43,121 nt of DNA from Chloroflexota bacterium (GTDB lineage Bacteria > Chloroflexota > Anaerolineae > Anaerolineales > UBA11858): the NCBI GenBank assembly GCA_018648225.1, contig JABGRQ010000113.1:1-43121 (forward strand). Direction: 5' to 3'. The position numbers and the translations under genes are program-made. Each line of letters opens with the position of its first letter. The first letter of the stretch is position 1. The notes under the pieces were generated by a model. It did not search any database. It had not been told where the DNA came from and worked only from the letters and a program-made list of their open reading frames with translations. Positions 3,126 through 28,133 of this stretch are shown here, one piece after another.

Positions 3126-4952
3126 ATGAAAATACTAAAATCAATAGGAATGAATTGGTCCTTGCCTACCAAGATCGCGGTCGCATTTTTATTGGCCGCG
3201 CTATTGCCCTCGCTTGCGGTTTCGGTGTATCAATTTGATACTGGGTCTACTTTGCTGCACGATTTGGCCCTAGATGAAATCCATTTACTGGCATCTGGTG
3301 TGGCCGGGCGCCTAGACCAACTTTTTGATGATACAGAAATTGTGGCATCGCAGATCAGTACAGACCCCACCGTACTCGGCATTCTGCTAGAGCCCGACAA
3401 TGAAGCCGCGCGTACAGCCATCGAAGAACGCTTTTGGGATATTCTGCGCTCAAATCCAGACTATGAATATGTATACCTGCTGCAAGAAAATGGCGATGTA
3501 ATTGTTTCAATCCAGCAGCCTGGGCTTCCTACAGTTCAAGGCGGCAATTTCAGTAATCGAAAATATTTTAGCGAGGCCATTGCAGGTCGCAGTCATATTG
3601 ATGCGCTAGTTGGGCGAAATAGTATGCAATTGGGATTTTATTTTTCACACCCGGTCGTAGATGCCCAGGAAGGCATTGTGGGTGTAGTTGCACTTAAACT
3701 GAAAGGCAGTGCGATTACCAGTATCATCAACGATTTCGATGAGAGCAGCGGAGCGGTTTCTGTATTTTTGGTTGATCACGACGGTATTGTGGTCAGCGCT
3801 CCCAGTTACGCATCGGAGTGGCACCTCAAAGGGCTGGTTAAATTATCCGCCGATGAAGCCGCGGAAGTTGAAAAGCGCTTTGTCATGGATGAGCCACTTA
3901 CATATTTAGACATCCCTGAACTAACCAAACTCACCAAGTATAACAATGGCATCACCGAATATCTCGATGAAGTGATGGATGCTATCTATATTGTTGGCTA
4001 TAAAACCACCGAGAATCTGACCTGGGTTGTGGGGGTCTCCATGTCCGATGAGTATTTCCGCGCCCCGATGGTAGACCTGGCATGGCAGAGCCTCGCTGCG
4101 GTGGGAGTAATGATCGTTATCATTGTTTTGCTGGCCCTGATGCTGGGACGCGGTATTGCCCAACCGGTGCTAAAACTGGCTCATGTTGCCCAAGACGTTG
4201 AAGATCACAAACCCTATTCTCCAGAAGATATTGCCGATGTGATGTCTCTGGGCGATGAAGTCGGACATCTGGCGCGCGTGTTTAACGATATGATTTTGGC
4301 ATTGCGGGCACGTATGGCTGAACTGCAAACCATCTACGAGATTGGCAATAAAATTAGCTCCAGCGTTGAACTCGAAGATACGCTCCGTGATGTAATTGAT
4401 TCCCTCGGCAATGTGATCAGTTTTGAAGCCGCGGAAATTTGTCTTTACGATACCCGAGACAAACATTTGTTGCTCTATGTCACCCGCGATGATGTCTTCA
4501 GCGACGATGAAACGGTTGAAAAATCGATTTACAGCCCCAAAGAAGATTACTTCCCACGCCTCTTTACCGACCGGCACGGGTTGCTGGTTCCAAATATGGA
4601 CGCGTTCGAAAAATATCGGATGACAACGGCGCGTTCCTGGGATGCTTTTGCTCCAAAATCCTATTTGGGTGTTTCCTTGCGCCACCAGAGCCGTGTCGTT
4701 GGTACAATTGAATTGGTTAGCAGTGTTGTAAATGCTTTTAATGAAGATAATTGCCGTATCTTAGAGAGCATCTCCATTCAGGCTGCTGTCGCTCTCAGCA
4801 ACGCCCAAGAAGTGCGCGAGCGCGAACGTCGTCTGGTAAATATGGAAATTGTCGTCGATGATGGGCGTGTTGATAACGAATTAGAAGTTGTTACGAAACG
4901 CCCCTTCTTCCAGGAGTTAAAGCAAAAGGTTTCCAAGCGCAAATCTTCATAA
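3126..4952 (+). CDS. Membrane sensor: dCache - HAMP - GAF, no output domain
   Basis: The 608-residue protein starts at ATG 3126 behind AAGGAG. A first membrane helix (about residues 17-37) is followed by a ~270-residue extracytoplasmic region with the double Cache look (for example GGNFSNRKYF), a second helix (about 315-340), a HAMP linker (about 340-395) and a GAF domain (about 410-560). It ends after a short polar tail, with no histidine kinase, GGDEF, methyl-accepting or phosphatase domain. It would bind an external ligand through Cache and a cytoplasmic ligand through GAF, then pass the signal to a separate partner. The adjacent cyclic-nucleotide-binding and SLATT proteins are the obvious candidates. 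The domain order is confident; the ligand is unknown. Confidence 0.85.
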   Translation: MKILKSIGMNWSLPTKIAVAFLLAALLPSLAVSVYQFDTGSTLLHDLALDEIHLLASGVAGRLDQLFDDTEIVASQISTDPTVLGILLEPDNEAARTAIEERFWDILRSNPDYEYVYLLQENGDVIVSIQQPGLPTVQGGNFSNRKYFSEAIAGRSHIDALVGRNSMQLGFYFSHPVVDAQEGIVGVVALKLKGSAITSIINDFDESSGAVSVFLVDHDGIVVSAPSYASEWHLKGLVKLSADEAAEVEKRFVMDEPLTYLDIPELTKLTKYNNGITEYLDEVMDAIYIVGYKTTENLTWVVGVSMSDEYFRAPMVDLAWQSLAAVGVMIVIIVLLALMLGRGIAQPVLKLAHVAQDVEDHKPYSPEDIADVMSLGDEVGHLARVFNDMILALRARMAELQTIYEIGNKISSSVELEDTLRDVIDSLGNVISFEAAEICLYDTRDKHLLLYVTRDDVFSDDETVEKSIYSPKEDYFPRLFTDRHGLLVPNMDAFEKYRMTTARSWDAFAPKSYLGVSLRHQSRVVGTIELVSSVVNAFNEDNCRILESISIQAAVALSNAQEVRERERRLVNMEIVVDDGRVDNELEVVTKRPFFQELKQKVSKRKSS

Positions 4953-5108: not shown

Positions 5109-5609
5109 ATGCTCTCGATACCAGAAAAGATCAGTTTCCTGCGCAAAGTATCGGCATTTGAAGAATTGACCCGTGAACAGCTCATCGCGTTAGCAGAGAT
5201 TTGCAACGAACGATCTTTTAGCCAGGGAGATAATATTTTCCGCCAGGGCGATATTGGCGGAGTTTTGCATATAGTTATTTCTGGAAAAGTGACTATTGAA
5301 CGCGAACTTCAGCAGCAAAGTAATAAAGTTTCCATTATGCAGGTAGAACCCTACGACTATTTAGGTGAGATGTCGTTGTTTTATGACGCGCCACGCTCGG
5401 TAGCTGCGGCAGCCATGGAAGATACGATCACATTGGAAATGGAAAACGATGGCTTTATGAAAATTATCCGCGATGATCCTGATTTGTTGATTGAATTCTG
5501 CCGCGTACTCAGCGTTCGGCTGTGCGAAGCTTACGATAAAATAGCAGAAGCAAATATGGATAAAAAACCACGTGAATTACGTAAACTCTATGACAAACTC
5601 GATTTCTAA
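5109..5609 (+). CDS. Stand-alone cyclic-nucleotide-binding domain protein
   Basis: The 166-residue protein is a single cNMP-binding (CAP_ED) beta-barrel. The phosphate-binding cassette is seen as YLGEMSLFYDAPRSVAAAA, with the conserved Gly-Glu and the Arg that contacts the cyclic phosphate. There is no helix-turn-helix, so it is not a Crp-type regulator. After the C-helix it ends in a short basic/acidic tail (MDKKPRELRKLYDKLDF). The start at 5109 has a strong GGGAGG site. It lies 12 bases before the SLATT gene, so the two are almost certainly translated from one mRNA. It probably senses a cyclic mono- or dinucleotide and relays binding to the neighbouring SLATT or SLOG/TPR proteins. No nucleotide cyclase is in the cluster. 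Confidence 0.9.
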   Translation: MLSIPEKISFLRKVSAFEELTREQLIALAEICNERSFSQGDNIFRQGDIGGVLHIVISGKVTIERELQQQSNKVSIMQVEPYDYLGEMSLFYDAPRSVAAAAMEDTITLEMENDGFMKIIRDDPDLLIEFCRVLSVRLCEAYDKIAEANMDKKPRELRKLYDKLDF

Positions 5610-5621
5610 GGAAGGTACTCA

Positions 5622-7235
5622 ATGAATGATGCGACGCCTCATAACCAATTGCTCGAAACTGCCTGGCGGCGTTTTGCTACTTTAGATAAAAACGCCATCA
5701 GTGTGCAAAAACAATATATCCGTCTGCGCAGAATTATGGCCGTCTTGGGAGTATTGGCTGTGCTCTTTGCCATTTTGGTAGATAACTATAGTCAGCCAAA
5801 TACTGTGGTCGCATACATTTTGCAGGGGTTTCTTATTCTTATGCCAATTTCAGTTTCGATATTTGCCGCGTTTACCAACAAATTTCAGCAAGGACAGAAA
5901 TACATCTCTTACCGGGCCGCGGCTGAATCTATTCTCAAAGAGATTTACCTCTACCGTACAGCGAACAAAAATGAGCCGAATCGTAATCGAATCCTCAGCG
6001 ACCGCCTGGCAACCATTCAGCGAGATTTGTTTCGCGGCGCCGGTGGCGAGTTGGTGCTGACCGAATTTCAGGGTGATGTGCCCCCCTACTACGATCCCAA
6101 GAAAAATGTTGGCGACCCGGGTTTTGACAATCTTGCCGGTGATGCGTATCTAACGTATCGCCTGGAAGACCAACTGGCCTGGCACATCAAACAAAACCTG
6201 AAACTGCAACGCGACCGCAAGCGCATCCAGTGGGCCATTCTGATCTTTGGCGGGGTAGGGGCCTTCTTGGCAGCCTGGGGCGGTTCAATGGCGTTATGGG
6301 TAGCCTTTACCGCGGCAATTGCCTCGGCGCTGGTTGGTTGGGAAGAATTGCGCGGCCTGGATATGCGCGTGGGCAATTACAGTCAGGTTATTTTGGAGTT
6401 GAACATCATCCGCGACTGGTGGTTTACGTTGGGAGATGAACAGCGCGCCGACAAAAATATCAGCAGGCTGGCTGAGAAAACCGAAAAAGCGCTATTCGAC
6501 AAAAACCTCGAATGGGCAGGCGCCATGCGCAAAGCCCTGGCAGAGGCTGAAGGCGATGAAGCTGATTTGGTGGAACATTTTGTTGAAGAGGGCCGTGAAG
6601 TTACCGCTCGCATTCAAGCAAAACTCTATGATGAAGTGGAAGAAATCTTTGATGAAAATATTGGCGAGGTTGCCGAGCGGGTTGAATCTGTAATTGAAGA
6701 TTCGAGCGACGTTCTGGGTAGCCTGTTTGCGGGACTTACTGCCATCAATGAAGATGAACTCGATTTACCGCCCGAAGAAGCTGCGGCAGACATCATTGAT
6801 GATGCGCTGGAAGGCGTTTTTGATGATCCTTTTGCGGCTTATGAAGATGAGGCTGTCAAAGAAGATGAAACCTTCTTTGATCTCCCCCCGGAGGCAGAAT
6901 CGGCTCCGGAACCAGCATACAGCCCTCCCCCCGAACCGAAAACCGTTGAAAGCGCCGTTGATGCCGCAATTGCTGCCTCGTCGTTGTTTTCAGATGAATC
7001 CGAAGAAATTCCCGTGGAAGAAGCTACACAAGTCACACTATTTGATGATGAAGCTGAAATTGTGGCTGAATCTGAAAGCGAAGAACTGGATGATGACCCC
7101 GAAGCTGAAGGCGATATGCACGAAACCTGGGATGATGACGACACGGATCAGGATGGTGATATGCACGAAGTTTGGGATGACGAAGATGATGCCTTCGAAT
7201 ACGATGGCGATGTAAGCGAATCCTGGGATGATTAG
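5622..7235 (+). CDS. SLATT/DUF4231-type membrane protein with long acidic tail
   Basis: The N-terminal ~100 residues fit the DUF4231/SLATT family: a basic amphipathic helix followed by paired membrane helices (about residues 37-53 and 62-88) and the polar segment KYISYRAAAESILKEIYLYR. A second hydrophobic pair lies at about 203-240, followed by another SLATT-like helical stretch. SLATT proteins are predicted pore-forming or membrane-perturbing effectors in nucleotide-dependent conflict systems. From about residue 300 the protein is very acidic, and it ends with three copies of a GD(M/V)xExWDD motif at 497-505, 512-520 and 529-537. The ribosome site AAGGAAGG supports the start. The tail could be an inhibitory or docking segment; its function is unknown. 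Confidence 0.8.
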   Translation: MNDATPHNQLLETAWRRFATLDKNAISVQKQYIRLRRIMAVLGVLAVLFAILVDNYSQPNTVVAYILQGFLILMPISVSIFAAFTNKFQQGQKYISYRAAAESILKEIYLYRTANKNEPNRNRILSDRLATIQRDLFRGAGGELVLTEFQGDVPPYYDPKKNVGDPGFDNLAGDAYLTYRLEDQLAWHIKQNLKLQRDRKRIQWAILIFGGVGAFLAAWGGSMALWVAFTAAIASALVGWEELRGLDMRVGNYSQVILELNIIRDWWFTLGDEQRADKNISRLAEKTEKALFDKNLEWAGAMRKALAEAEGDEADLVEHFVEEGREVTARIQAKLYDEVEEIFDENIGEVAERVESVIEDSSDVLGSLFAGLTAINEDELDLPPEEAAADIIDDALEGVFDDPFAAYEDEAVKEDETFFDLPPEAESAPEPAYSPPPEPKTVESAVDAAIAASSLFSDESEEIPVEEATQVTLFDDEAEIVAESESEELDDDPEAEGDMHETWDDDDTDQDGDMHEVWDDEDDAFEYDGDVSESWDD

Positions 7236-7264: not shown

Positions 7265-9673
7265 ATGAGCAAACTTGGCGATGCATTCAAAAACTTATTG
7301 TCTGCGGAAGATGACGAAATAACAACAGTGGATGAAGTTGTAATAACACAAGGCGCGGAGGAAACTGAGATGGTTGATACGAAACTGGAAGAAGCTGCTG
7401 TTGAAAGCGCTGTCGAATCTGTAAAAGCCTCGGTGAGGGTAGCGGTAGAAGAAGCCGTTAGAGATGCGATTGCAGAGGCCAAAGGGACAGTTACAGACGC
7501 AATTCAGGAAGTGGTAGAAGACACGAATCTTGTTGCCATACCTCCAGCATCTCAACCCGGCAAAGAAGAATCGCGCGAAGCTCGCCCCCACGCCTTTGTA
7601 GTGATGCCTTTTGGCAAAAAGAAAGGTTTCGATGGTACCGAGATTGATTTCAATGCCATTTATCAAGACTTGATCAGACCTGCCCTGGAAGAAGCCGGTT
7701 TTGAACCTTTCCGTGCGGATGAAGAAACGACTACGGGCGATATTCTCACGGATATGTTTCAGGAATTACTCCTGGCTGATTTGGCAATCTGCGATTTGAG
7801 CATTGATAATGCCAATGTATATTACGAACTGGGCATTCGCCATGCGTTCCGCAAACGCGGCGTGGTGCATATTCAATCGGGGCGCGCCTATATGCCCTTT
7901 GATATTTTCAATGTGCGCACGATTCCGTATCACACAACTGATGAAGGCCTGCCTGACCCTGAATTTCTAGAGAAAGATATTCAGGCCATTTCGCGCGTTT
8001 GCCGTGATACTTGGGCTTCCGATCAGGAGGCCATTCACAGCCCGGTGTTCAATCTGCTAACCGGGCTGGAAGAACCCGATCGCAAAACCCTGCGCACACC
8101 GCTGGCAACTGGTTTCTGGCGCGAATATAATGAGTGGAAAGAACGCGTCACCGTGGCGCAGCGTCAGAAGCGCATCGGCGACATTATGCTGCTGACGGAA
8201 GAAATCAGCAATCCGCTGATTAAAGAAGAAGCCATTAATCAGGCCGGTCAGGCACTGCGCAGTATGGGACGGCACGAACTGGCTTTGCAGCAATATCGCC
8301 AGGGGATTGAACTGAACTCAAAAAACACCGAATTTCGCCGCCAGGAGGCTTTCCACCTGAACCGCTTGGGGCGCGTAGACGAAGCCATCGTCAAGCTGGA
8401 AAATTTGCTCGAAGAGGAACACAGCGACACAGAGGCGATCTCCTATTTGGGGCGCATCTACAAAGATATGTGGACCGAATCCTGGGAGCAGATCGGCGAC
8501 GAAAAAGTGCGCCTGCAAGAAGCGTTTGATGCATCGCATTGGCTGGTCAAATCCATTCAGACCTACCTCAAAGGTTTTTACTTCAATCTCAACGAGTATT
8601 ATCCCGGCATCAATGCCCTGACGCTCTCCATCATCCTCGACCACCTGGCTGAAATGTATGACGAGGGCGATGATCCCGATGTTCAGGCTGTGCGCGATTT
8701 GCTTTCCAACCTCAAAGGGACGCTGGAACTGGCGCTCGAACATCTCTCGCAAGATGACAGCAGCGATTACTGGACTTTGGTTTCCCTGGCCGAGTTATTG
8801 GTGATGACCTCGGATAACCCCAAAACTGTAAAACGCGCTTACAAAAAGGCGCTCACTGCGGCTCGCAAGAATATCTTCTTCCTGGAATCATCCATCAGCC
8901 AGCTCGAAATTTTGAGTTCGTTGGCCCTGCGTCCGGAATATGTAAAGGTGGGGGTTGAAGTTCTCAAAGATGAAATTCGCCGCATCCGTAAGGAACAACC
9001 CGAAGAAGAGAAGGATGAAATTGAAGACCCCAAAGCGAAAGACGAGCGCGTGATCCTGTTTGCCGGGCATAAGATGGACCGCGATGGACAAACCGAGCGC
9101 CGCTTCGTGACAGAGATGGAAAAAGAAGCCCGCAAGCGCATTGACGCCGCACTCGACAAATTCGATATTGGCAATGACGATTTGGGCGTAACCGCAGGGG
9201 CAGCCTGCGGCGGTGAGATCATTTTTATTGAGGCCTGCCTGGAGCGGGGGATGAAAGTTGAAGTCCACCTGCCTTATAGCGAGCCGCAATATATCAAACA
9301 GAATATTAGTTTCGCTGGCGATGCGTGGGTAGAGCGCTTCTACAATCTGCGCAATCACCCCGATGTCAATATCAGCTTCCAGCTTGACCATGTGGGTAAG
9401 GTAAAAACTGGAGATGATCTTTATAAGCGTAACAACCGCTGGGCGCTGTACTCCTCGTTGTTGTTGGGCATCGATCGAGCACGCTTGGTGGCTTTGTGGG
9501 ATGGCAAGGGCACAGATGTAGATCGGGATGGCGAGTTGGTCAACCACATGGTTGAAGAAATGCGCCACATGGGCGGTTTTGTGGAGCATATCAACACCAC
9601 CAAATTTGACTACTGGCAGGCCGGTGGCAAAGTTGGCGCTGCCCTCGATAAGCTGGCAGGGCTGGATATGTAA
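7265..9673 (+). CDS. Deoxyribosyltransferase/TIR-like domain - TPR region - SLOG-like domain protein
   Basis: The 802-residue protein begins at ATG 7265 behind GAGGAGG. An acidic helical N-terminus (~1-100) precedes a Rossmann-like domain at about 109-225, with FVVMPFGKKKGFD, ADLAICDLS and the hallmark NVYYELGIRHAF, as in nucleoside-deoxyribosyltransferase-like/TIR-like proteins. The Glu of YELG is the probable catalytic residue. Residues ~270-560 are helical TPR-like repeats (for example GRHELALQQYRQGIELN, GRVDEAIVKLENLLEE), comparable to the ASK1/MAP3K TRAFs-binding (DUF4071) region. From about 593 comes a SLOG-like fold: VILFAGHKMD, then GVTAGAACGGEIIFIEACLERG, then VHLPY. SLOG domains are linked to nucleotide sensing or processing. 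There is no kinase domain. It closes the cluster 51 bases before a strong bidirectional terminator. It may cleave or sense a nucleotide and act on the SLATT partner; this is inference. Confidence 0.8.
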   Translation: MSKLGDAFKNLLSAEDDEITTVDEVVITQGAEETEMVDTKLEEAAVESAVESVKASVRVAVEEAVRDAIAEAKGTVTDAIQEVVEDTNLVAIPPASQPGKEESREARPHAFVVMPFGKKKGFDGTEIDFNAIYQDLIRPALEEAGFEPFRADEETTTGDILTDMFQELLLADLAICDLSIDNANVYYELGIRHAFRKRGVVHIQSGRAYMPFDIFNVRTIPYHTTDEGLPDPEFLEKDIQAISRVCRDTWASDQEAIHSPVFNLLTGLEEPDRKTLRTPLATGFWREYNEWKERVTVAQRQKRIGDIMLLTEEISNPLIKEEAINQAGQALRSMGRHELALQQYRQGIELNSKNTEFRRQEAFHLNRLGRVDEAIVKLENLLEEEHSDTEAISYLGRIYKDMWTESWEQIGDEKVRLQEAFDASHWLVKSIQTYLKGFYFNLNEYYPGINALTLSIILDHLAEMYDEGDDPDVQAVRDLLSNLKGTLELALEHLSQDDSSDYWTLVSLAELLVMTSDNPKTVKRAYKKALTAARKNIFFLESSISQLEILSSLALRPEYVKVGVEVLKDEIRRIRKEQPEEEKDEIEDPKAKDERVILFAGHKMDRDGQTERRFVTEMEKEARKRIDAALDKFDIGNDDLGVTAGAACGGEIIFIEACLERGMKVEVHLPYSEPQYIKQNISFAGDAWVERFYNLRNHPDVNISFQLDHVGKVKTGDDLYKRNNRWALYSSLLLGIDRARLVALWDGKGTDVDRDGELVNHMVEEMRHMGGFVEHINTTKFDYWQAGGKVGAALDKLAGLDM

Positions 9674-9786: not shown

Positions 9787-11910
9787 TTACTCAGAAACCT
9801 TCAAAACACCAAATCCCTTCGTTGCATAATACACCAGGCGCGGCTGATTGGTGTCGAATTGGATCGCCTGGATTTCGATACCTGTCAACTCCGTTGGGCC
9901 TGCTTTCCAGGTTGCCCCGCCATCATCTGAAATAAATGCTCCCTCAGTTGTGCCTGCGTAAATCAGGTTAGCGCGTGTGGGATGCGCGGCAATACTCGTC
10001 ACCACCGATCCGCTCAGCGCGGCAGGCACCCAGCCGATTCCGCCAATATATTTATAAACCCCGTTGCTGGTGCCCACATACAACACATCATGGTTAAATG
10101 TATCCAACGTCAGTGAGTAGGCTGCCACGCCCGCCAGCCCCATATCTCCCCAGGTCGCGCCGCCATCCAGGCTCATTTGCACGCTGCCCGCCCTGTTGGT
10201 GGCGGCGTACACCCGATTAGGTTCCCCAGGTACAACTACCAGCGCATACACGCTCGTCCCTGCCAGCCCCATCGCCGCCCAACTTTGCCCATCATCCATA
10301 CTGCGGTAAACACCCCCGCCCGCCGTCCCCAGATAGCCCATCGCTGGAGAAGTATTGGTGAAGGTTAAGCATAGCAGGGGGATAGATGCCGCCTGGGGTA
10401 GATTGGTGGGCAGGCTTTCATCGGGGAAGAGTTGCTCGAAGACGTCATCCTGATGGAAGGGGTGAACGGACTCCTCCGCTGTGGGTACGGCTCCCGAAAG
10501 AAAATTCCCGCCCGCGGGCTGCCACCCTCCCCCGTTGAGCGTGTCCCGTCGATATAGGCCGGATTCATCTGTCAGGGCGTAGAGCCAGCTTGTTTGAACA
10601 GGATGCACCACCAGAGCGTGGACGCGCTTGTCCACTATACCTTGGTGATAATCTCCCCAGGTTGCGCCCCCATCCAGTGAGCGCGCTATCCATCCGGGAT
10701 ACAAACTGGCGTACAGCGTTTGCGAATTGCCGGGCTGCACCAACAGCGATGTGACCTTACTGGCATTCAGGCCTTGCTGGCTGTGCTCCCAACTGCCGCC
10801 GTTATTTGTGCTGCGGAACAGCCCGTTATGCAGCGTGCCGCTGAGAAGCTGGCTGTAATGTGCCGGGCGCGGAATAACATCGAGAATAATTTCGCTGCTC
10901 AACCCCGCCGTCGACCAGCTTTCACCGGCATTGGTGGAACGCATAATACCGTGGTCAAATGTGCCCAGGTAGAGAGTGTCTTTGTTGTTGGGGTTAACGG
11001 CGATGCGATACGTGCGCACTTGTGAGACGTTGTTGGTTTTCAAACTCCACACGTCGCCGCGGTTGGTGGATTTATAGACACCCGTAGGATGGAACACGCC
11101 CAGATAAACTGTGCTGGTATTGACGCGCGGATCGGGTTCAATGGCACGTCCGGTGCGATCGCCGACACCATTATTAACCGCCTGCCAGCTTCGACCGTAG
11201 TCAAGGCTGCGATAAGCGCCATGCTCGTGCGTGGCAGCGTAGACGATATTGGCGCTATGCGGGTAGATCGAGAGATCGTAGGCCCAATCTTGCTCGCCAG
11301 AGCCGCCCACGTTGGTCAGCACAGGCTGCCAGCTTTGGCCGCCATCTTCGCTGCGGTAGACCACCCCGCGCCACGGCGCCGCGCCGTTGTTGGATTCGCC
11401 GCGCGTGGCGGCATAGACGCGAGAAGTGCGTGCGGGGTCAATTTCAATCGCGTAGGAGATCGCCCCACCCTGAATGCCTGCATCGCTGCGATACCACGAT
11501 TCACCCCCGTTGATCGATTTATAAATGCCGCCGCGATACGTCCCCGCGTAGAGTACCAGCCTATTGCGCGGGGCAATCGTCACCACAGTCACATCCCGGT
11601 TTTGCAGCCCGGCGCTGACATCGCGCCAGGTGAGGCCGCCATCTTCGCTCTTAAAAATGCCGTGCCCGTGTACCGCAGCAAAGGCGGTATTGGGATTTTC
11701 GGGGTCGTAGATCAAATCGGTAACTGAACCACCCCCCGGGCCAATCCACGCGCTGAAGGCAGGGTAGTTGATCTCACTGGCAGCAATGATGGGCAGGTAA
11801 ACGCGGAAAGGCTGGTCGGCAGTATTATCGGCAGAACCTGCGACACTCACAAGCCAGAAACTTGTGAGTGCAACGAGCAGTGCGGGGATGAGAAAAATGC
11901 GTTTTTGCAT
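9787..11910 (-). CDS. Secreted BNR/sortilin-like beta-propeller protein
   Basis: The 707-residue product starts with a signal peptide (basic MQKR, hydrophobic core to about residue 22, then GSADN). The rest is built of about a dozen BNR/Asp-box repeats such as SEDGGLTW, SINGGESW, SEDGGQSW, STNAGESW and SLDGGATW, alternating with beta-rich segments (VYAAT, LYAGT). This is the VPS10/sortilin- and HCF136-like propeller seen in many extracellular proteins; usual roles are binding or glycan contact rather than catalysis. No sialidase catalytic residues could be recognised. It is a single-gene unit with no obvious partner, bounded by the terminator at 9724-9768. No clear Shine-Dalgarno precedes the ATG. 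Confidence 0.85.
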   Translation of the reverse strand: MQKRIFLIPALLVALTSFWLVSVAGSADNTADQPFRVYLPIIAASEINYPAFSAWIGPGGGSVTDLIYDPENPNTAFAAVHGHGIFKSEDGGLTWRDVSAGLQNRDVTVVTIAPRNRLVLYAGTYRGGIYKSINGGESWYRSDAGIQGGAISYAIEIDPARTSRVYAATRGESNNGAAPWRGVVYRSEDGGQSWQPVLTNVGGSGEQDWAYDLSIYPHSANIVYAATHEHGAYRSLDYGRSWQAVNNGVGDRTGRAIEPDPRVNTSTVYLGVFHPTGVYKSTNRGDVWSLKTNNVSQVRTYRIAVNPNNKDTLYLGTFDHGIMRSTNAGESWSTAGLSSEIILDVIPRPAHYSQLLSGTLHNGLFRSTNNGGSWEHSQQGLNASKVTSLLVQPGNSQTLYASLYPGWIARSLDGGATWGDYHQGIVDKRVHALVVHPVQTSWLYALTDESGLYRRDTLNGGGWQPAGGNFLSGAVPTAEESVHPFHQDDVFEQLFPDESLPTNLPQAASIPLLCLTFTNTSPAMGYLGTAGGGVYRSMDDGQSWAAMGLAGTSVYALVVVPGEPNRVYAATNRAGSVQMSLDGGATWGDMGLAGVAAYSLTLDTFNHDVLYVGTSNGVYKYIGGIGWVPAALSGSVVTSIAAHPTRANLIYAGTTEGAFISDDGGATWKAGPTELTGIEIQAIQFDTNQPRLVYYATKGFGVLKVSE

Positions 11911-16194: not shown

Positions 16195-16731
16195 TTACGC
16201 TCCCAAAGGTTTTACGCCATTTGTTAGTCCATATTCTAACATAGCAACCACCTGACTGTGGGTGTGGGCGCGCTGTAACCGTTCGGCAATTACTTTTGCC
16301 AGGCGTTCAAGAATTAGCTTACCGGTATCAGGAAATTTAATGTGGAAACGTTTCAGGGCTTCACCACTCACGCAAAGCAATCCGGCATCCGAAAGACAAT
16401 AGGCTCCCGAAGTGTAATAACCACTGCCAAAGGCAGCTGACCAACCAAAAACACCCCCGGCTTCAATTTGCGCTACCGTCAGCATTTCGCCATCGTCGGG
16501 TTTGAATCGAATCGCCACGCGGCCTTTAACAACCAGATAAAGATAATTGGCAATATCCCCTTGTTTGAAAATTTCTTCATTTTCAGCGCACTCACTGAAA
16601 GAAAACAGCGGCGTTAAGCGATTGAGTTCCGCCTCCGTTAACCCTTCAAATAAGGGCATTTGTTTGAGTATTTTTGGTAACATCGTCCAGGGTCCGCTTT
16701 CATTGATTAGCTGGGAGTGTGACCACCCCAT
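16195..16731 (-). CDS. Cyclic-nucleotide-binding domain protein without DNA-binding domain
   Basis: The 178-residue protein begins LKQMPLFEGLTEAELNRLTPLF, the usual lead-in of a cNMP-binding domain, with FKQGDIANYLYLVVKGRVAI as the barrel core. The phosphate-binding cassette (GGVFGWSAAFGSGYYTSGAYC) is divergent: the conserved Glu and Arg are missing, so the ligand may not be cAMP or may be absent. No helix-turn-helix follows. The start at 16731 has GGGAG close by; an internal ATG at 16683 would give 162 residues beginning MLPKIL. It leads an operon with the NifU-like and small membrane proteins. Confidence 0.8.
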   Translation of the reverse strand: MGWSHSQLINESGPWTMLPKILKQMPLFEGLTEAELNRLTPLFSFSECAENEEIFKQGDIANYLYLVVKGRVAIRFKPDDGEMLTVAQIEAGGVFGWSAAFGSGYYTSGAYCLSDAGLLCVSGEALKRFHIKFPDTGKLILERLAKVIAERLQRAHTHSQVVAMLEYGLTNGVKPLGA

Positions 16732-16882: not shown

Positions 16883-18577
16883 CTAGAAGCCTAATTCACG
16901 TAAATTTTGTTCAGCATCAAATTTCTTTTTTCCGAGTAACTCATCCCAGAAGCGATCGTCATAACGACGGGAACGAACCGGCAACGGCATGGGAACTCCC
17001 CACCCGAGGAGCAGGACTTCCTCTTTCGGCTGGAGGCGGGCCAGCATTCCCCGAAGGGAATCTCGCCCCGAAAGGCCAGAGAGTACCGCGCGCAGATCAT
17101 CTTCATCACCCAGCCAGCCTGAGATACGCGTCCCCAACTGCGACATGACTTCGTCGTAAATTTGCGAGGGGCGCTGGTCAATAATCAGCAGGGTGACGTA
17201 ATATTTGCGCAGCTCGCGGGCAATGGTACTGAAGGTAGTCTGGCGTGCCATCTCACGGTTGAGCAGTTTGTGGGCTTCTTCCACGGCAATGACCAGGGGG
17301 CGCGGCTCATTTCTGCCCGAACTGCGAAAGGCATTAGCGCTGGCTTCCCAGCGATTGCGGATATGGCGGGTGAGCAAATTGCTGACTAAAAGATAATCGA
17401 GATCGCTTTCGTGGTCGCCAAAGGAAAGCACAATATGCTGCCCGGCTTCAAGGGCTTTAACAATTTCATTGATGCCGTCCGAAGATGGGTTTTCAACGAT
17501 ATATTCGGTATTGAACAAGCGTCGCATTTTGTTGTGCAGGCCTTCTGCGGCAGCCAGATTGACGCCTTCGGCATTGGCCCAATAAGCCACGCTATCGGGC
17601 GCGGGGATTTTCTTGCCATCTTCAGTTTCGATGACGGAGCCTACTTTGAGTTGGCGAAATTCGTTAAACCAGTTTTGCGGACCAAAGGTCTTTTGCAAAG
17701 CATCCAAAGTAGTGGGGGTGGTTTCGCGCAAATTTAGTTCGCGCGCCAGCAATTCCACATCGGCGGGGCGAATATCGCGCATGGCAATTTCCAGGTTGAA
17801 ATCGGCGGCCTGCCCGCGGATCAGGGCGCCTGCACCCAGGCCCACCACGCGCACCTTCGAGCGGAATTTGGCCTTCAACCCAACCACACGCTCGCCAGTG
17901 TCAGAGGCGGTATCATCCAGGCCGTATTCATTGTGCATATCAAAAATCAGCACGGAGGCTTTATCATACTGGATCAATCCGGCCAGCACCATTCGGGTGA
18001 GGAAAGATTTTCCCGTGCCGGTTGCACCGAAAATTCCGGAGGAGCGCTGGATAAATTTCTCCATATTGATGCGCACGGGATGTCCCTGCTCGCGCGTGTA
18101 GCCGATGACAAAATTGCCTTTTTCATCCTTGCCAAAAATTTCAGCAATATCGCCCTCATGCGCCAAATAAACTTGGGAGTGATGCGGCGGTACGGTTTTG
18201 ACGGGTACGGGGCGCGGTTGGTCACGCAAGCCGGAATCGATCGCTGAGAGCCAGCGCGCGTAGTCAGGCGATTCCATATCGGGGCCAACATCCAACATCA
18301 GGGCGGGGAGAATTTCCAAATTGGTGTAGAGGGTTTGTCCGTGGAGTAGTTTCGCGATTTCGGCAGGCAGGCGCGCTTGGCTTTGCTCATCGGCAAAACG
18401 CGGGTCGGTGGCGCCGAGTTGAATATCCGTCACCAGCCCGTAGAAATGCCAGGGCAGATTATCAATGACCACAAAGGCGCCTTCTTGCACCTCCTGGGAG
18501 GGCACTTGCAACCGGGCGCGGAAACTCTCTTTTAGTCCGCCGCCGACGATATAGCCAATGGATTTTCGATTTTGCAT
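16883..18577 (-). CDS. herA: HerA-family hexameric DNA-translocating ATPase
   Basis: The 564-residue protein has an N-terminal HAS-barrel-like segment (GYIVGGGLKESFRARL) and a FtsK/HerA-type ATPase core. Walker A is GATGTGKSF (about residues 182-190), Walker B is VLIFDMHNEYG (about 208-217), and VIAVEEAHKLL and LLIIDQRPSQI are further conserved motifs. HerA forms a hexamer that moves along duplex DNA and works with the NurA nuclease in end resection; related HerA-nuclease pairs act in anti-phage defence. AGGA lies before ATG 18577. It is 118 bases downstream of the DUF3800 gene in the same direction, at the end of the nurA - HAS-barrel - DUF3800 - herA run. Confidence 0.9.
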   Translation of the reverse strand: MQNRKSIGYIVGGGLKESFRARLQVPSQEVQEGAFVVIDNLPWHFYGLVTDIQLGATDPRFADEQSQARLPAEIAKLLHGQTLYTNLEILPALMLDVGPDMESPDYARWLSAIDSGLRDQPRPVPVKTVPPHHSQVYLAHEGDIAEIFGKDEKGNFVIGYTREQGHPVRINMEKFIQRSSGIFGATGTGKSFLTRMVLAGLIQYDKASVLIFDMHNEYGLDDTASDTGERVVGLKAKFRSKVRVVGLGAGALIRGQAADFNLEIAMRDIRPADVELLARELNLRETTPTTLDALQKTFGPQNWFNEFRQLKVGSVIETEDGKKIPAPDSVAYWANAEGVNLAAAEGLHNKMRRLFNTEYIVENPSSDGINEIVKALEAGQHIVLSFGDHESDLDYLLVSNLLTRHIRNRWEASANAFRSSGRNEPRPLVIAVEEAHKLLNREMARQTTFSTIARELRKYYVTLLIIDQRPSQIYDEVMSQLGTRISGWLGDEDDLRAVLSGLSGRDSLRGMLARLQPKEEVLLLGWGVPMPLPVRSRRYDDRFWDELLGKKKFDAEQNLRELGF

Positions 18578-18610
18578 ACTAATTCCTACTTGTGTATTCC
18601 TATGAAATCA

Positions 18611-18692
18611 TGCTATACTGATCATGCGTGACCTAATTAGCCCATTTGGTTAAGGCGGCCATGCCCAGTGCCCGCTTGAAGCGGGCATTTTT
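18611..18692 (+). ncRNA. Candidate small RNA unit on the opposite strand of the herA operon
   Basis: An extended -10 box TGCTATACT (18611-18619), with a weak TTGTGT -35 at 18590-18595, is followed about 50 bases later by an intrinsic terminator (stem TGCCCGC/GCGGGCA at 18669-18687 plus a T-run). A transcript of ~65-70 nt would start near 18626. It would run antisense to the DUF3800-herA intergenic leader. Part of it looks like a tRNA D-arm, but no tRNA cloverleaf forms. Confidence 0.35.
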
Positions 18693-18694
18693 CT

Positions 18695-19525
18695 TTAAAC
18701 ATGTACGATCCCCATGCCATATGGATCTTTTCTTGAGGCCTCTAATAGTAGGCGAGGATGCAATAAATCAAATAATCGATCCACATTGTAACGTTTGAGG
18801 CTTCCGCGTGGATATAGTTTCTGATAAAGTAGGTACGCAGATACATCAACCATTTGAACAAAATAACTATGTTTAGAATCTCGAATTACAGGATCATCGA
18901 CAATCTGAGTACAAAGTTTTTGTCGGGTTCCCCCACCATATAGATTTGGAACCGGGTTGTAAGCTCGCATTTTTCGAAGCAAACGACGCAACATCGGCTC
19001 ATCGTTTTGATCAGCAAAAATCATTCCATTAGCTGGTACAGTTATCCCTTCAAATCTTTGATATTCAAGAAAATTATGAAATCGTTGAATTAACCGTTCC
19101 CATGCAATTAGATTTATGGGAGTTTCCTTTCTATAGTTTACCTTATTGACATGAACATGAATAAACTGAATATCAATTAAATCCAAAGCGATTCTTTGAA
19201 TATAATCTCTAAGAGTTGCAACTCGATTTTTCTTGTTCCCCATTAAATCATGAAATTTCTGTTTACTTCGATTTCGCCCTAACCAATCAGCAATATGAAT
19301 TTCTGTACGCACGGGAAGTCCATAGGCTTGTTTCAAATAGTATCGTATTTGACGATGTTGCTCAAAAATAACTCTCCAGCGATCTACAGGAATAATCACA
19401 CCTGAAAGTATGTAATGTTGGGAATTACTTCTATCGGGTTGAAGAATTCCTGGGTCACCGGATTCATCAACATAAATTAAATAAGTTCTGGGGCAAATTG
19501 TTACTCCTGAGATTTGATTACCCAT
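18695..19525 (-). CDS. DUF3800 family protein (predicted RNase H-fold nuclease)
   Basis: The family hallmarks are YLIYVDESGDPG at the N-terminus, RTEIHIADWLG, MIFADQNDEPM and YFVQMVDVSAYLLYQ, which supply the acidic residues of an RNase H-like active site. DUF3800 proteins are often found beside mobile or defence genes; their biochemistry is poorly known. The start is best placed at ATG 19525, seven bases after GGAGG; the GTG at 19531 is too close to that site. It follows directly on the HAS-barrel stop codon, so it is translated with it. The gene is visibly more A+T-rich than the flanking nurA, HAS-barrel and herA genes, which suggests later insertion into the operon. Confidence 0.85.
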   Translation of the reverse strand: MGNQISGVTICPRTYLIYVDESGDPGILQPDRSNSQHYILSGVIIPVDRWRVIFEQHRQIRYYLKQAYGLPVRTEIHIADWLGRNRSKQKFHDLMGNKKNRVATLRDYIQRIALDLIDIQFIHVHVNKVNYRKETPINLIAWERLIQRFHNFLEYQRFEGITVPANGMIFADQNDEPMLRRLLRKMRAYNPVPNLYGGGTRQKLCTQIVDDPVIRDSKHSYFVQMVDVSAYLLYQKLYPRGSLKRYNVDRLFDLLHPRLLLEASRKDPYGMGIVHV

Positions 19526-19527
19526 CC

Positions 19528-20133
19528 TCACACCTCCCTGACATCGCTCAACGCGCCCAGCACACCCATCAGCGCAGGATAATCATCGCGCAGCAGGGCA
19601 ATCAATTCGCGCGTGGCGGCTTCTGTCCATTGGGGAGAGCCTTTCTGGGCGTGGGCAGCGCTGGCTTGTTCAAGATGCGCGGCCAGCAATTCACCCACAG
19701 GGGCATCCTGGGCGCGTAAAATATGCCGAAAATAGCCGAAACGCCCCTGCGATGTAAAATCGCACAACTCTTTCGGGCTGCATTGGTAGATCACATCCAG
19801 GCTGAGCGGAGGGCGCGGCGGCAACAGGTGGCGAATCGCGCCATTCTGCTGGTAGCCCACGGTCAACACGCTAATTTCGATGGGAACATTGCGATTGATG
19901 CGATTGTCAGCGACTACGTTTTCGTCCACGCGGTCGGCGGTGACAAGTTGCCGCACGATTCCATCATCATCAATGCGGATGTCGTGAATCAGACCATACA
20001 CATGGTAGCCCTCCCCCAGGGGCGCACGAACCAACCCCCCAAAGGTAGGCGCATCCACTTGCGAAACACGGCAACCGGCCACAAATCCAGTGGTTCCGGC
20101 GCGTAATAAACGTCCAATCTCAATCGCTGTCAT
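19528..20133 (-). CDS. HAS-barrel domain protein of the NurA-HerA operon
   Basis: The 201-residue protein starts with IEIGRLLRAGTTGFVAGCRV and continues APTFGGLVRAPLGEGYHVYGLIHDIRIDDDG. This is the pattern of the HAS barrel (HerA/ATP-synthase N-terminal barrel) that also opens HerA itself. The remaining ~110 residues are helical and acidic. As a separate protein it may cap or load the HerA hexamer or bridge it to NurA. It lies 33 bases after nurA and abuts the DUF3800 start. The role is inferred from position and fold only. Confidence 0.75.
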   Translation of the reverse strand: MTAIEIGRLLRAGTTGFVAGCRVSQVDAPTFGGLVRAPLGEGYHVYGLIHDIRIDDDGIVRQLVTADRVDENVVADNRINRNVPIEISVLTVGYQQNGAIRHLLPPRPPLSLDVIYQCSPKELCDFTSQGRFGYFRHILRAQDAPVGELLAAHLEQASAAHAQKGSPQWTEAATRELIALLRDDYPALMGVLGALSDVREV

Positions 20134-20166
20134 CGTTATTCCCTCTCGTTCGTGTGCTTCGTGGTT

Positions 20167-21342
20167 TTACGAAACCGACACATCTTTTGCCGCTTGCTTG
20201 AACGAACCTTCGCTGAATTCGATGCCATGTTTCTGCAATTCCAGCGCGATCATATTTTCAACCTGCTGGGCTTCATCGCGGCTGACCACTGCAACCTCGT
20301 GCGAGCGGTGCAAAATATAGGGGTAAGGCCGCCCTCCCAGAATATGAGACTGGTGCAGCAAAATGGCGTGCAGTTGGTCGAGCATGGCGGCATTGGCAGC
20401 CACCCAGGCAGGAATTTCGACGCGCACCGTGTAGGGCTTGCGGGGGTTGCGGCTGACATTCAGATAAAAGAAATGCAACGCTAACTCCGCCGTATACAAC
20501 TCGGCATTGCGCGATTGAATGCCCAAAACAGCTGAACGCTCGCCGGGACGCAAAATTTCGGCAAAGAGATCAGCATCGGCGAGTTGCAAAAATGGGCGAT
20601 GCGTGCGTCCGGCTTTCTCAATTTCATCCAGGGGTAGAAGCGCAATCTCCAACAGGCGTACCAGCAAGTCGCCGCGCGGCTTGTCGATATACCCGGCAGT
20701 CGATGCGCCAATGCGGTGCAACCGGCGCAAGGCAGCCAAATATTCTTTGAAGCGTTTCTCATATTCCCCGGTTTCCAAAGAAACTTCGCTCCCCACCCAA
20801 AGCTCCAGCGGCCCATCCGTGAGCGTAATCGCGGGGGATGGCAAATCTTCGGCCAATTCCGCCAGCAATGTGCGCTCGCGCAGATCGCGCAGCAATGCTA
20901 CCATGCGCTCGTTGATATACCCGCCGCCCACATACATTTGGTCGTCATAATACAGCTTACTCTGAACATCGGTAGTTGGGGCATCCGGCTCGCCATGCTG
21001 CATCTGGATAGCCCCCACATTAACCAGACAAAAATCGACCGAGGCATGCCGATTGGGATTGATCTGGGAACCATCGGCGGCGAGCAGCGTGGCGGCGGCG
21101 GGGACCTCGGGGCTGGCTGCACGGGTAAGCAGATTCTCGTCCCGGGGCAGGGCACAGCGCAAATTCGGATTCGCCTGAAGGGCAGCATCTACCTTGAGCT
21201 GCAATTCGTCCAATTTCTCAGCCCAATCGGAGAGCGCCTGGAGTGCTTTCTCACGAGTTTCGCGCATGTGCTGCGCTCGCAGAGGAGCATCTTTTCCCAT
21301 TTCGATAATTTGTTGGCGCACTTGCTGGAAATCAATTGCCAT
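20167..21342 (-). CDS. nurA: NurA-domain nuclease
   Basis: The 391-residue protein carries the NurA motifs: LLAADGSQINPNRH (Asp90 as the first metal ligand), an ITLTDGPLELW segment with the second Asp, and the late HRSHEVAVVSRDEAQQVE. NurA is a 5'-3' single-strand and duplex exonuclease/endonuclease that works with HerA on DNA ends. The N-terminus is helical (coiled-coil-like to ~residue 60). It is the first gene of the minus-strand operon; the 140 bases upstream hold an inverted repeat but no clear promoter. Confidence 0.88.
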   Translation of the reverse strand: MAIDFQQVRQQIIEMGKDAPLRAQHMRETREKALQALSDWAEKLDELQLKVDAALQANPNLRCALPRDENLLTRAASPEVPAAATLLAADGSQINPNRHASVDFCLVNVGAIQMQHGEPDAPTTDVQSKLYYDDQMYVGGGYINERMVALLRDLRERTLLAELAEDLPSPAITLTDGPLELWVGSEVSLETGEYEKRFKEYLAALRRLHRIGASTAGYIDKPRGDLLVRLLEIALLPLDEIEKAGRTHRPFLQLADADLFAEILRPGERSAVLGIQSRNAELYTAELALHFFYLNVSRNPRKPYTVRVEIPAWVAANAAMLDQLHAILLHQSHILGGRPYPYILHRSHEVAVVSRDEAQQVENMIALELQKHGIEFSEGSFKQAAKDVSVS

Positions 21343-26979: not shown

Positions 26980-28133
26980 CGCCCCTGATATTGCCGCCCT
27001 TTCCAGGTGACGCCACGGCCAAAGAGTACTTTATAGGCCGATGCAAACATCATCGCCGCGAAGATTGCCGCGCCGAGGGGTAGGGTGAACGCATACCAGC
27101 CTGAAATTTGAAAAGCCTGCGCTGAGCGAGCACGCCAGTAGAGCAAAAAGCCCCATACCAGCAGCGCTTCGAGTGTCACCACGAACGCGGGTAAGCCGCC
27201 CGCCGCGGCGAACCAGAGCAATCCGGCCAGCAGCCAGGCAGGCAGCGCCAGCGCGCCCATTAGCGCGGCGAAGGCGCCAAATGCCAGTAAACCCAAACGG
27301 TCGCGTAACCCTAAAAAAATATTCTTGGTCCAGCCTTCCCACATTTCGGGCAGGGATGTGTACATACGCGTGCGCGCCACGGCGCGCCCATCCGCAATGA
27401 AAAGACGATAGCCCGCGCCTTTGACAACTTCGGCGAAGGCTTTATCTTCGTCGATGCGATTATGAACGGCCCTATGGCCGCCAACGTCTTCATAGGCAGC
27501 CCGACAAATGAGGAAAAACTGGCCGTTGGCAATTGCTTCGGGTTTTGCGGGATCGTTGACTTGCCGGGCGGGAAAGCCAAAGGCCAACCCGGTGAATACC
27601 AGCGGCAGGACGGCTTTCTCCCAAAAAGTGCCCAACTCCTGATCGGTGAGCAGGGTGAACAGATCGGCTTGCTGTTCACCTGCTGCGAGACAAGCGCTGG
27701 AAATTAAATGTTGGTGGGCGAAGGTGTCCGCATCGACAAAGCACAGCCATTCGCCGCGGGCAATTTCGACGCCCTGCACCAGGGCATGGGGTTTCCCCGC
27801 CCATTCTGGGGGCTTTTCCCTGCCCGTCAATACACGCAAACGCGCAGCTTGCGCGGCAAGTTCTGCCAGAATTTGGGGGGTGGCATCGGTAGAGCGATCA
27901 TCCACCACAATAAGTTCGAAATTGGGATACGATTGCGCCAGCAAAGTTTCCGCGCAACGACGGATATTGCGGGCTTCGTTGCGCGCCGGAACAATGATGG
28001 AAATTAGTGGGGCTGGTGCATCCGGGGGTAAAGGCGCCGGGGAGATGGCAACTTCAATAGCAACGCGGCTATGAAGCCAATAGATGAGTATCAGCGCAAT
28101 CAAACAGGCAAGGGAAGAAAACAGCATGGGCAT
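26976..28133 (-). CDS. Family 2 glycosyltransferase, membrane-anchored
   Basis: The 385-residue protein has an N-terminal membrane helix (MLFSSLACLIALILIYWLHS), a GT-A domain beginning ISIIVPARNEARNI, the nucleotide-sugar motifs VVDDRSTD and CFVDADTF (DxD-type), an acceptor region with AYEDVGGHRAV and RIDEDKAFAEVVK, and three C-terminal helices. It most likely adds a sugar to a lipid or carotenoid at the membrane, as related carotenoid and hopanoid glycosyltransferases do. Its start overlaps the stop of the SbcC-like gene by one base (TGATG), so the two are translated together; no functional link is obvious. The 3' end overlaps the convergent DUF92 gene by four bases. Confidence 0.85.
   Translation of the reverse strand: MPMLFSSLACLIALILIYWLHSRVAIEVAISPAPLPPDAPAPLISIIVPARNEARNIRRCAETLLAQSYPNFELIVVDDRSTDATPQILAELAAQAARLRVLTGREKPPEWAGKPHALVQGVEIARGEWLCFVDADTFAHQHLISSACLAAGEQQADLFTLLTDQELGTFWEKAVLPLVFTGLAFGFPARQVNDPAKPEAIANGQFFLICRAAYEDVGGHRAVHNRIDEDKAFAEVVKGAGYRLFIADGRAVARTRMYTSLPEMWEGWTKNIFLGLRDRLGLLAFGAFAALMGALALPAWLLAGLLWFAAAGGLPAFVVTLEALLVWGFLLYWRARSAQAFQISGWYAFTLPLGAAIFAAMMFASAYKVLFGRGVTWKGRQYQGR

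Follow-up and report, generated by a model that had tools for sequence, protein, structure and literature searches.

An 802-residue protein encoded in the window (the whole 43,121-nt stretch of DNA that was analyzed) combines a DrHyd domain, a helical TPR-S solenoid and a SLOG domain, and its gene is coupled to a SLATT membrane-protein gene in 66 of the 71 loci, out of 75, that had at least 1.5 kb of upstream sequence. Because this adjacency or fusion to a predicted membrane-pore protein is nearly constant, the 802-aa protein probably serves as the control unit of a switch for stress or self-destruction. The first-pass annotation had described a three-part reading frame in which a DrHyd/TIR-class domain is followed by an ASK-type TPR region, with SLOG in place of the kinase; profile matches, the structural model and 75 conserved loci agree with this layout, and all three domains are supported. 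It had overlooked the neighboring SLATT gene, which is the strongest functional clue. The features of the locus are as follows.

3126..4952, + strand: dCache-HAMP-GAF membrane receptor-like protein, accompanying the cluster in 4 of 6 close relatives, a less certain link
5109..5609, + strand: stand-alone cyclic-nucleotide-binding (cNMP) protein, 166 aa (cNMP_binding, E=3e-17), first of the three-gene cluster
5622..7235, + strand: SLATT protein, 537 aa, the immediate upstream partner, with four predicted TM segments and an acidic low-complexity C-terminus
5682..5960, + strand: DUF4231 (Pfam), first SLATT-like 2TM unit
6147..6515, + strand: SLATT_1 (Pfam), second 2TM unit
7265..9673, + strand: CDS of the three-domain protein, 802 aa, ATG start (N-terminal linker, DrHyd, TPR-S, SLOG)
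7265..7564, + strand: N-terminal region, aa 1-100, alanine/glutamate-rich and poorly conserved (zero conserved columns)
7583..8017, + strand: DrHyd (deoxyribohydrolase / NDT-like, TIR-class), aa 107-251, assigned from a DNPH1 match, Nuc_deoxyrib_tr in relatives and the model
7826..7828, + strand: codon of Glu188 in YELG, candidate catalytic residue, invariant in 66/66 non-redundant homologues
8099..8989, + strand: helical TPR solenoid, aa 279-575 in the model, with Pfam TPR-S at aa 338-455 and MAP3K_TRAF_bd at aa 358-557
9050..9670, + strand: SLOG domain, aa 596-802 (about 596-800), assigned from a fold search, the model, YAcAr matches in relatives and invariant motifs

The gene is present as a single copy in its 4.0 Mb draft genome, which its relatives place as an Anaerolineae-type Chloroflexota. 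A GGAGG-type ribosome-binding site precedes it, the SLATT gene ends 29 nt away, and the SLATT gene itself starts 12 nt past the end of the cNMP-binding gene. The full-length AlphaFold model (pLDDT 82, pTM 0.68) consists of an alpha/beta domain, the long helical solenoid and a second alpha/beta domain. Residues 1-100 are probably a helical linker, and in the fused homologues the equivalent region joins SLATT to DrHyd. Homologues were found by exact peptide patterns of the query, which biases the sample toward close relatives; the 75 loci (about 50-93% identity) are from Anaerolineae, apart from five cyanobacterial ones and one from an Aminicenantes MAG, possibly misbinned. Among 400 Chloroflexota genomes, 24 had any match, about ten of them full length, and the gene was present in 5 of 7 genomes of the genus and 8 of 21 of the family, many of which are incomplete drafts.

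The DrHyd domains form the deoxyribohydrolase/nucleoside-deoxyribosyltransferase superfamily, the sister of TIR, to which DNPH1 (Rcl), a 2'-deoxynucleoside 5'-phosphate N-hydrolase and thus an N-glycosidase, also belongs. The DrHyd region of the window protein itself matched no Pfam model. However, a DrHyd profile that included distant relatives (A2) matched DNPH1 of human and rat (E about 1e-3), the two YELG motifs falling opposite each other, and Pfam Nuc_deoxyrib_tr was found in 9 of the 33 profile members. The 802-aa protein also gave a weak PADLOC match to a TIR effector (E=6e-5), and this part of the model has alternating strands and helices, with moderate pLDDT in places. On the basis of sequence similarity, we assign the N-terminal domain to the DrHyd / nucleoside deoxyribosyltransferase superfamily, although DNPH1 differs in being a stand-alone metabolic enzyme that lacks TPR and SLOG. 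All 66 non-redundant homologues keep Arg150, Asp152, Asp177, Asp181, Asn182, Asn184, Tyr187, Glu188 and Asp213, and the YELG Glu is also kept in all distant DrHyd relatives of the A2 profile. The earlier proposal of this Glu as the candidate catalytic residue is thus strengthened by its invariance and its alignment to the Glu of the DNPH1 YELG. The predicted activity is N-glycosidic cleavage through Glu188; the literature searched contained no measurements of activity, ligand or pore for this family.

The C-terminal region was modeled alone with higher scores (AlphaFold, pLDDT 91.7, pTM 0.88). Compared with the PDB, its best high-probability matches were Moco carrier, DprA and LOG proteins, one LOG with AMP; E values were about 0.002-0.01 (none <=0.001) at probabilities up to 1.00, with unrelated matches of lower probability interspersed. 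YAcAr-SLOG was found in 16 of the 66 homologues (best E 2e-4), its scores, where shown, lying under the curated cut-off. Two motifs are invariant, GxxxG...E (G645/G649/E656) and RNNRW (aa 722-726). Taken together, the fold matches, the YAcAr matches and the GxxxG...E motif identify aa 596-802 as a SLOG domain. Because the window SLOG alone matched no Pfam model, this assignment draws on relatives and structure.

The helical region matched TPR-S (PF20308) at E=3e-20, with 73.1 bits against a curated cut-off of 27.6, and MAP3K_TRAF_bd (PF13281) at E=1e-9, with 38.2 bits against a cut-off of 24.1 and over only the C-terminal half of the model (177-353 of 371). Among the 66 non-redundant homologues, TPR-S was found in all (E<=0.1) and MAP3K_TRAF_bd in 63. 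TPR-S was reportedly introduced by Burroughs and Aravind in 2020 as a scaffold predicted to recognize NAD-derived signals and was linked to ASK; in their TPR-S conflict systems it is said to be linked to NAD-type enzymes and effectors. In the loci studied here, TPR-S shares a chain with DrHyd, with linkage to SLATT/TIR.

The resemblance to the N-terminal region of human ASK1 (MAP3K5; TBD + TPR; PDB 8qgy, 5ulm) is real. Both consist of an alpha/beta domain followed by TPR, both fall in the MAP3K_TRAF_bd family, and bacterial TPR-S and ASK1 have GRIYKD and PGIN-like motifs in common. However, it was published before: the derivation of ASK-signalosome components from bacterial conflict systems was stated by Kaur 2021 (PMC8195603), and the Pfam families PF20309 ('DRHyd-ASK'), PF13281 (MAP3K_TRAF_bd) and PF20308 (TPR-S) already carry the ASK link in their names. 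ASK1 goes on into PH, kinase, coiled coil and SAM (PMC10972558) and has neither SLOG nor SLATT, whereas the 802-aa protein gave no Pfam match to protein kinase, PH or SAM domains and ends in SLOG.

The suggestion that the protein could be a bacterial relative of the module from which ASK signaling derived stands as to the resemblance, but the protein does not qualify as a close ancestor, because simpler, common plasmid DrHyd-TPR-S proteins such as L104 (Agrobacterium) match ASK1 far better. In single-sequence searches of the PDB, L104 found human ASK1 over the TPR region at E=2e-9, whereas the window protein did not find it at E<=10, and L104 covers almost the whole MAP3K_TRAF_bd model at E=1e-43 (window protein: 1e-9). 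When the PDB was searched with the family profile, ASK1 was not among the 60 matches listed; it was reached at E=1e-6 once plasmid relatives joined the profile, a score that unrelated TPR proteins equal. ASK1 was also absent from the best 50 fold matches of the full-length model, a search that was swamped by generic TPR proteins and is uninformative about ASK1. PF20309 had no match in the genome or in the hmmscan of the protein, a result of limited power because control genomes were equally silent. It is thus very improbable that this protein is the direct bacterial progenitor of the ASK N-terminal module, even though the order of DrHyd then TPR is identical, the motifs are shared and MAP3K_TRAF_bd recurs in nearly all homologues. 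In the colinear alignment with L104, which is by itself insignificant, ASK1 has FYHLG opposite the bacterial FYELG, suggesting an evolutionary statement in which bacteria retain the catalytic Glu of the module and ASK1 appears to have lost it. The corresponding ASK1 domain (95-266) is described as a thioredoxin-like fold in the cryo-EM paper (PMC10972558).

The upstream 537-aa protein matched SLATT_1 (E=3.5e-20, 72.7 bits against a cut-off of 26.3; NCBIfam SLATT_1, E=6e-25) and DUF4231 (E=4e-10), gave four peaks in the TM scan and is encoded by the only SLATT_1 gene of the genome. Among the 66 linked loci, 59 have SLATT immediately upstream in the same orientation, with intergenic gaps of -38 to +102 nt, and seven have it fused (L039, L040, L049, L056, L083, L087 and L100; L040 is apparently split by a frame break). 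It lies 2.3 kb off in L038 and elsewhere in the locus in L098; the only SLATT-like ORF adjacent in L102 is short and partial, and no SLATT was seen in the cyanobacterial loci L081 and L084. Across loci, the SLATT genes retain both 2TM units. The fused proteins form one clade (support 1.00) with cyanobacterial sequences nested inside, so the history is most simply explained by a single fusion and a transfer to Cyanobacteria. The mirror-tree correlation between SLATT and its partner (r=0.85, to which shared species history contributes) exceeds all 999 permutations, whose highest value was 0.33, and the sequence trees thus point to a shared history of the two proteins.

Further neighbors differ between clades. 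The order cNMP-SLATT-TPRS was kept in all 6 close relatives having room for it, and no DNA-binding domain was found in the 166-aa cNMP-binding protein. This gene occupies the position that in sister clades is taken by a gene for a TIR-TM-WD40 protein (Pfam TIR_2 at E=2e-25, one TM segment, WD40 repeats), which is upstream in 35 of the 59 loci whose upstream sequence reaches 4.6 kb or more. The TIR Glu is retained wherever the ORF includes the complete TIR region. In L081 (234-4424) and L084 (1449-5687), one or more cyanobacterial TIR domains followed by WD40 repeats lie directly upstream of the DrHyd-TPR-S-SLOG gene. A TIR gene was sought beside the window copy and not found; the TIR-WD40 gene of this genome is on contig C114, with unrelated neighbors and without SLATT. 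An SH3/C39-type protein is encoded further upstream in 43 of the 59 loci, and a GAF-GAF-PAS histidine kinase is encoded upstream in those Anaerolineae loci that carry the fusion.

DrHyd-TPR-S proteins without SLOG are widespread on plasmids (59 plasmid records), many of them annotated as 'TRAFs-binding domain-containing'. On Rhizobium and Agrobacterium plasmids the DrHyd-TPR-S gene adjoins DUF4231/SLATT and TIR genes, and on Acinetobacter and Lactiplantibacillus plasmids it adjoins TIR genes. The Agrobacterium MA01 plasmid protein (L104) and those of Rhizobium plasmids (L123) share the YELG DrHyd followed by TPR-S, but lack SLOG, are only 26-34% identical over the shared part and have other further neighbors (carbohydrate kinase, N-glycosylase, QueC-like). 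Judged from gene content, the plasmid arrangement represents an independent second instance of the DrHyd-TPR-S/SLATT/TIR partnership. The L123 and L104 cluster, which comprises DrHyd-TPR-S, SLATT (DUF4231), two TIR genes, a carbohydrate kinase, an N-glycosylase/DNA lyase and a QueC-like synthase, resembles a conflict system related to modified bases. In L103, a Rhizobium leguminosarum plasmid, a DrHyd-TPR-S-SLOG-like match is split over two CDSs, with DUF4231, DUF3380, patatin and DUF4071 genes downstream.

Among the close known systems are the SLOG-SLATT and TIR-SLATT conflict systems predicted by Burroughs, Aravind and colleagues, in which SLATT would be a nucleotide- or ADPr-regulated membrane effector and TIR, DrHyd and SLOG signal makers or sensors; SLATT has been predicted to be an effector of membrane permeability regulated by ADPr derivatives, and SLOG a cADPR sensor (PMC9503650, PMC7159879). 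Neither the DrHyd-TPR-S-SLOG fusion nor the single-chain SLATT-DrHyd-TPR-S-SLOG protein was found in the literature searched, whose scope did not take in the papers that define SLATT and TPR-S (NAR 2015, J Bacteriol 2020). Thoeris (ThsB TIR plus ThsA SIR2-SLOG) likewise pairs a TIR gene with a SLOG-bearing effector (PMC9503650, PMC11204291). However, the present system has a membrane SLATT effector and added DrHyd and TPR-S, and Thoeris was rejected for the window because there was no SIR2, no TIR among the Pfam-scanned neighbors and no PADLOC Thoeris match. A Pycsar reading of the cNMP-binding gene was also rejected, since no cyclase is adjacent and the cyclases of the genome, six of class III, are on other contigs.

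We put at about even the chances that a nucleotide or NAD-type signal is the means by which the DrHyd-TPR-S-SLOG protein controls the SLATT membrane effector; that the purpose of the module is immunity is somewhat less probable. The 802-aa protein would supply the enzyme and the sensor, on the cytosolic side, of a membrane effector gated by a nucleotide signal. An upstream receptor (in sister clades the WD40 part of the TIR protein, here the dCache and cNMP proteins) would report stress or infection, and a nucleotide or NAD+-derived signal would be made by TIR, by DrHyd N-glycosidase activity through Glu188, or by both. SLOG and TPR-S would bind this signal, and the resulting conformational change would open the SLATT protein, adjacent or fused, as a membrane channel, leading to depolarization, growth arrest or cell suicide. 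The near-universal SLATT linkage, the single fusion clade, the mirror-tree result, the lone SLATT_1 gene of the genome, the invariant DrHyd residues with the DNPH1 match, the SLOG fold and the TIR genes nearby in sister clades and on plasmids speak for this model, and the published predictions for SLATT and SLOG agree with it. Several observations count against this model: five loci (L081, L084, L038, L098 and L102) have no regular adjacent SLATT, the DrHyd part has in places only moderate model confidence and no Pfam match in the window protein, and the TIR-WD40 gene of the genome is on another contig without SLATT. It is further weakened because the synteny within Anaerolineae and the presence in most genomes of the genus are less mobile than typical defense islands.

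DrHyd may instead be the toxic effector itself, an NADase or nucleotide hydrolase switched on via SLOG/TPR-S, with SLATT serving mainly as an anchor in the membrane or to sense damage to it. The strictly invariant active-site residues, the weak PADLOC match to TIR effectors and the two cyanobacterial loci without SLATT, where the DrHyd gene still adjoins a TIR-WD40 gene, are consistent with this reading, but we consider it unlikely, as the near-universal SLATT linkage and the retention of both 2TM units favor a membrane effector role. Equally unlikely in our judgment is a resident Anaerolineae module for signaling or ion homeostasis rather than immunity, in which a receptor (dCache or TIR-WD40) and a nucleotide signal would control ion flux. 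Gene order is conserved locally over many Anaerolineae, the neighbors are histidine-kinase, cNMP-binding and dCache genes rather than nucleases, and the genome has its class III cyclases; however, the patchy presence in Chloroflexota and within the family, the transfer to cyanobacteria and the plasmid-borne cousins that adjoin TIR genes argue against this reading.

A more specific form of the SLATT-effector model, which we regard as less probable than either of these, is a suicide switch of one polypeptide (or two genes), in which DrHyd would make, and SLOG/TPR-S of the same chain would sense, the nucleotide/NAD-derived signal that opens the fused SLATT channel, and in which the window clade would add cyclic-nucleotide control via the stand-alone cNMP-binding protein. 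If true, NAD-type and cNMP-type second messengers would be joined in one system. If the SLATT-effector model is right, the module would provide a compact model of a nucleotide-signal system whose enzyme, sensor and pore cannot be separated genetically and in some cases share one chain, and a direct route to the function of the SLATT domain and to the ligand of TPR-S, the scaffold it has in common with human ASK1.

The remainder of the window holds further genes of possible interest. Convergent with the end of the studied gene is a 707-aa BNR/sortilin-type beta-propeller protein (9787-11910, - strand) that is probably secreted. At 16883-21342 (- strand), a HerA-type ATPase (DUF87, 16883-18577), a DUF3800 gene (18695-19531), a 201-aa ORF and a NurA nuclease (20167-21342) form a cluster that suggests a DNA-end-processing or defense-like function. 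A second stand-alone cyclic-nucleotide-binding protein (16195-16731, - strand), with no recognized DNA-binding domain, adjoins the HerA gene, and a Rad50/SbcC-like ATPase with a zinc hook is encoded at 28133-30727 (- strand), within the same 43 kb as HerA-NurA.
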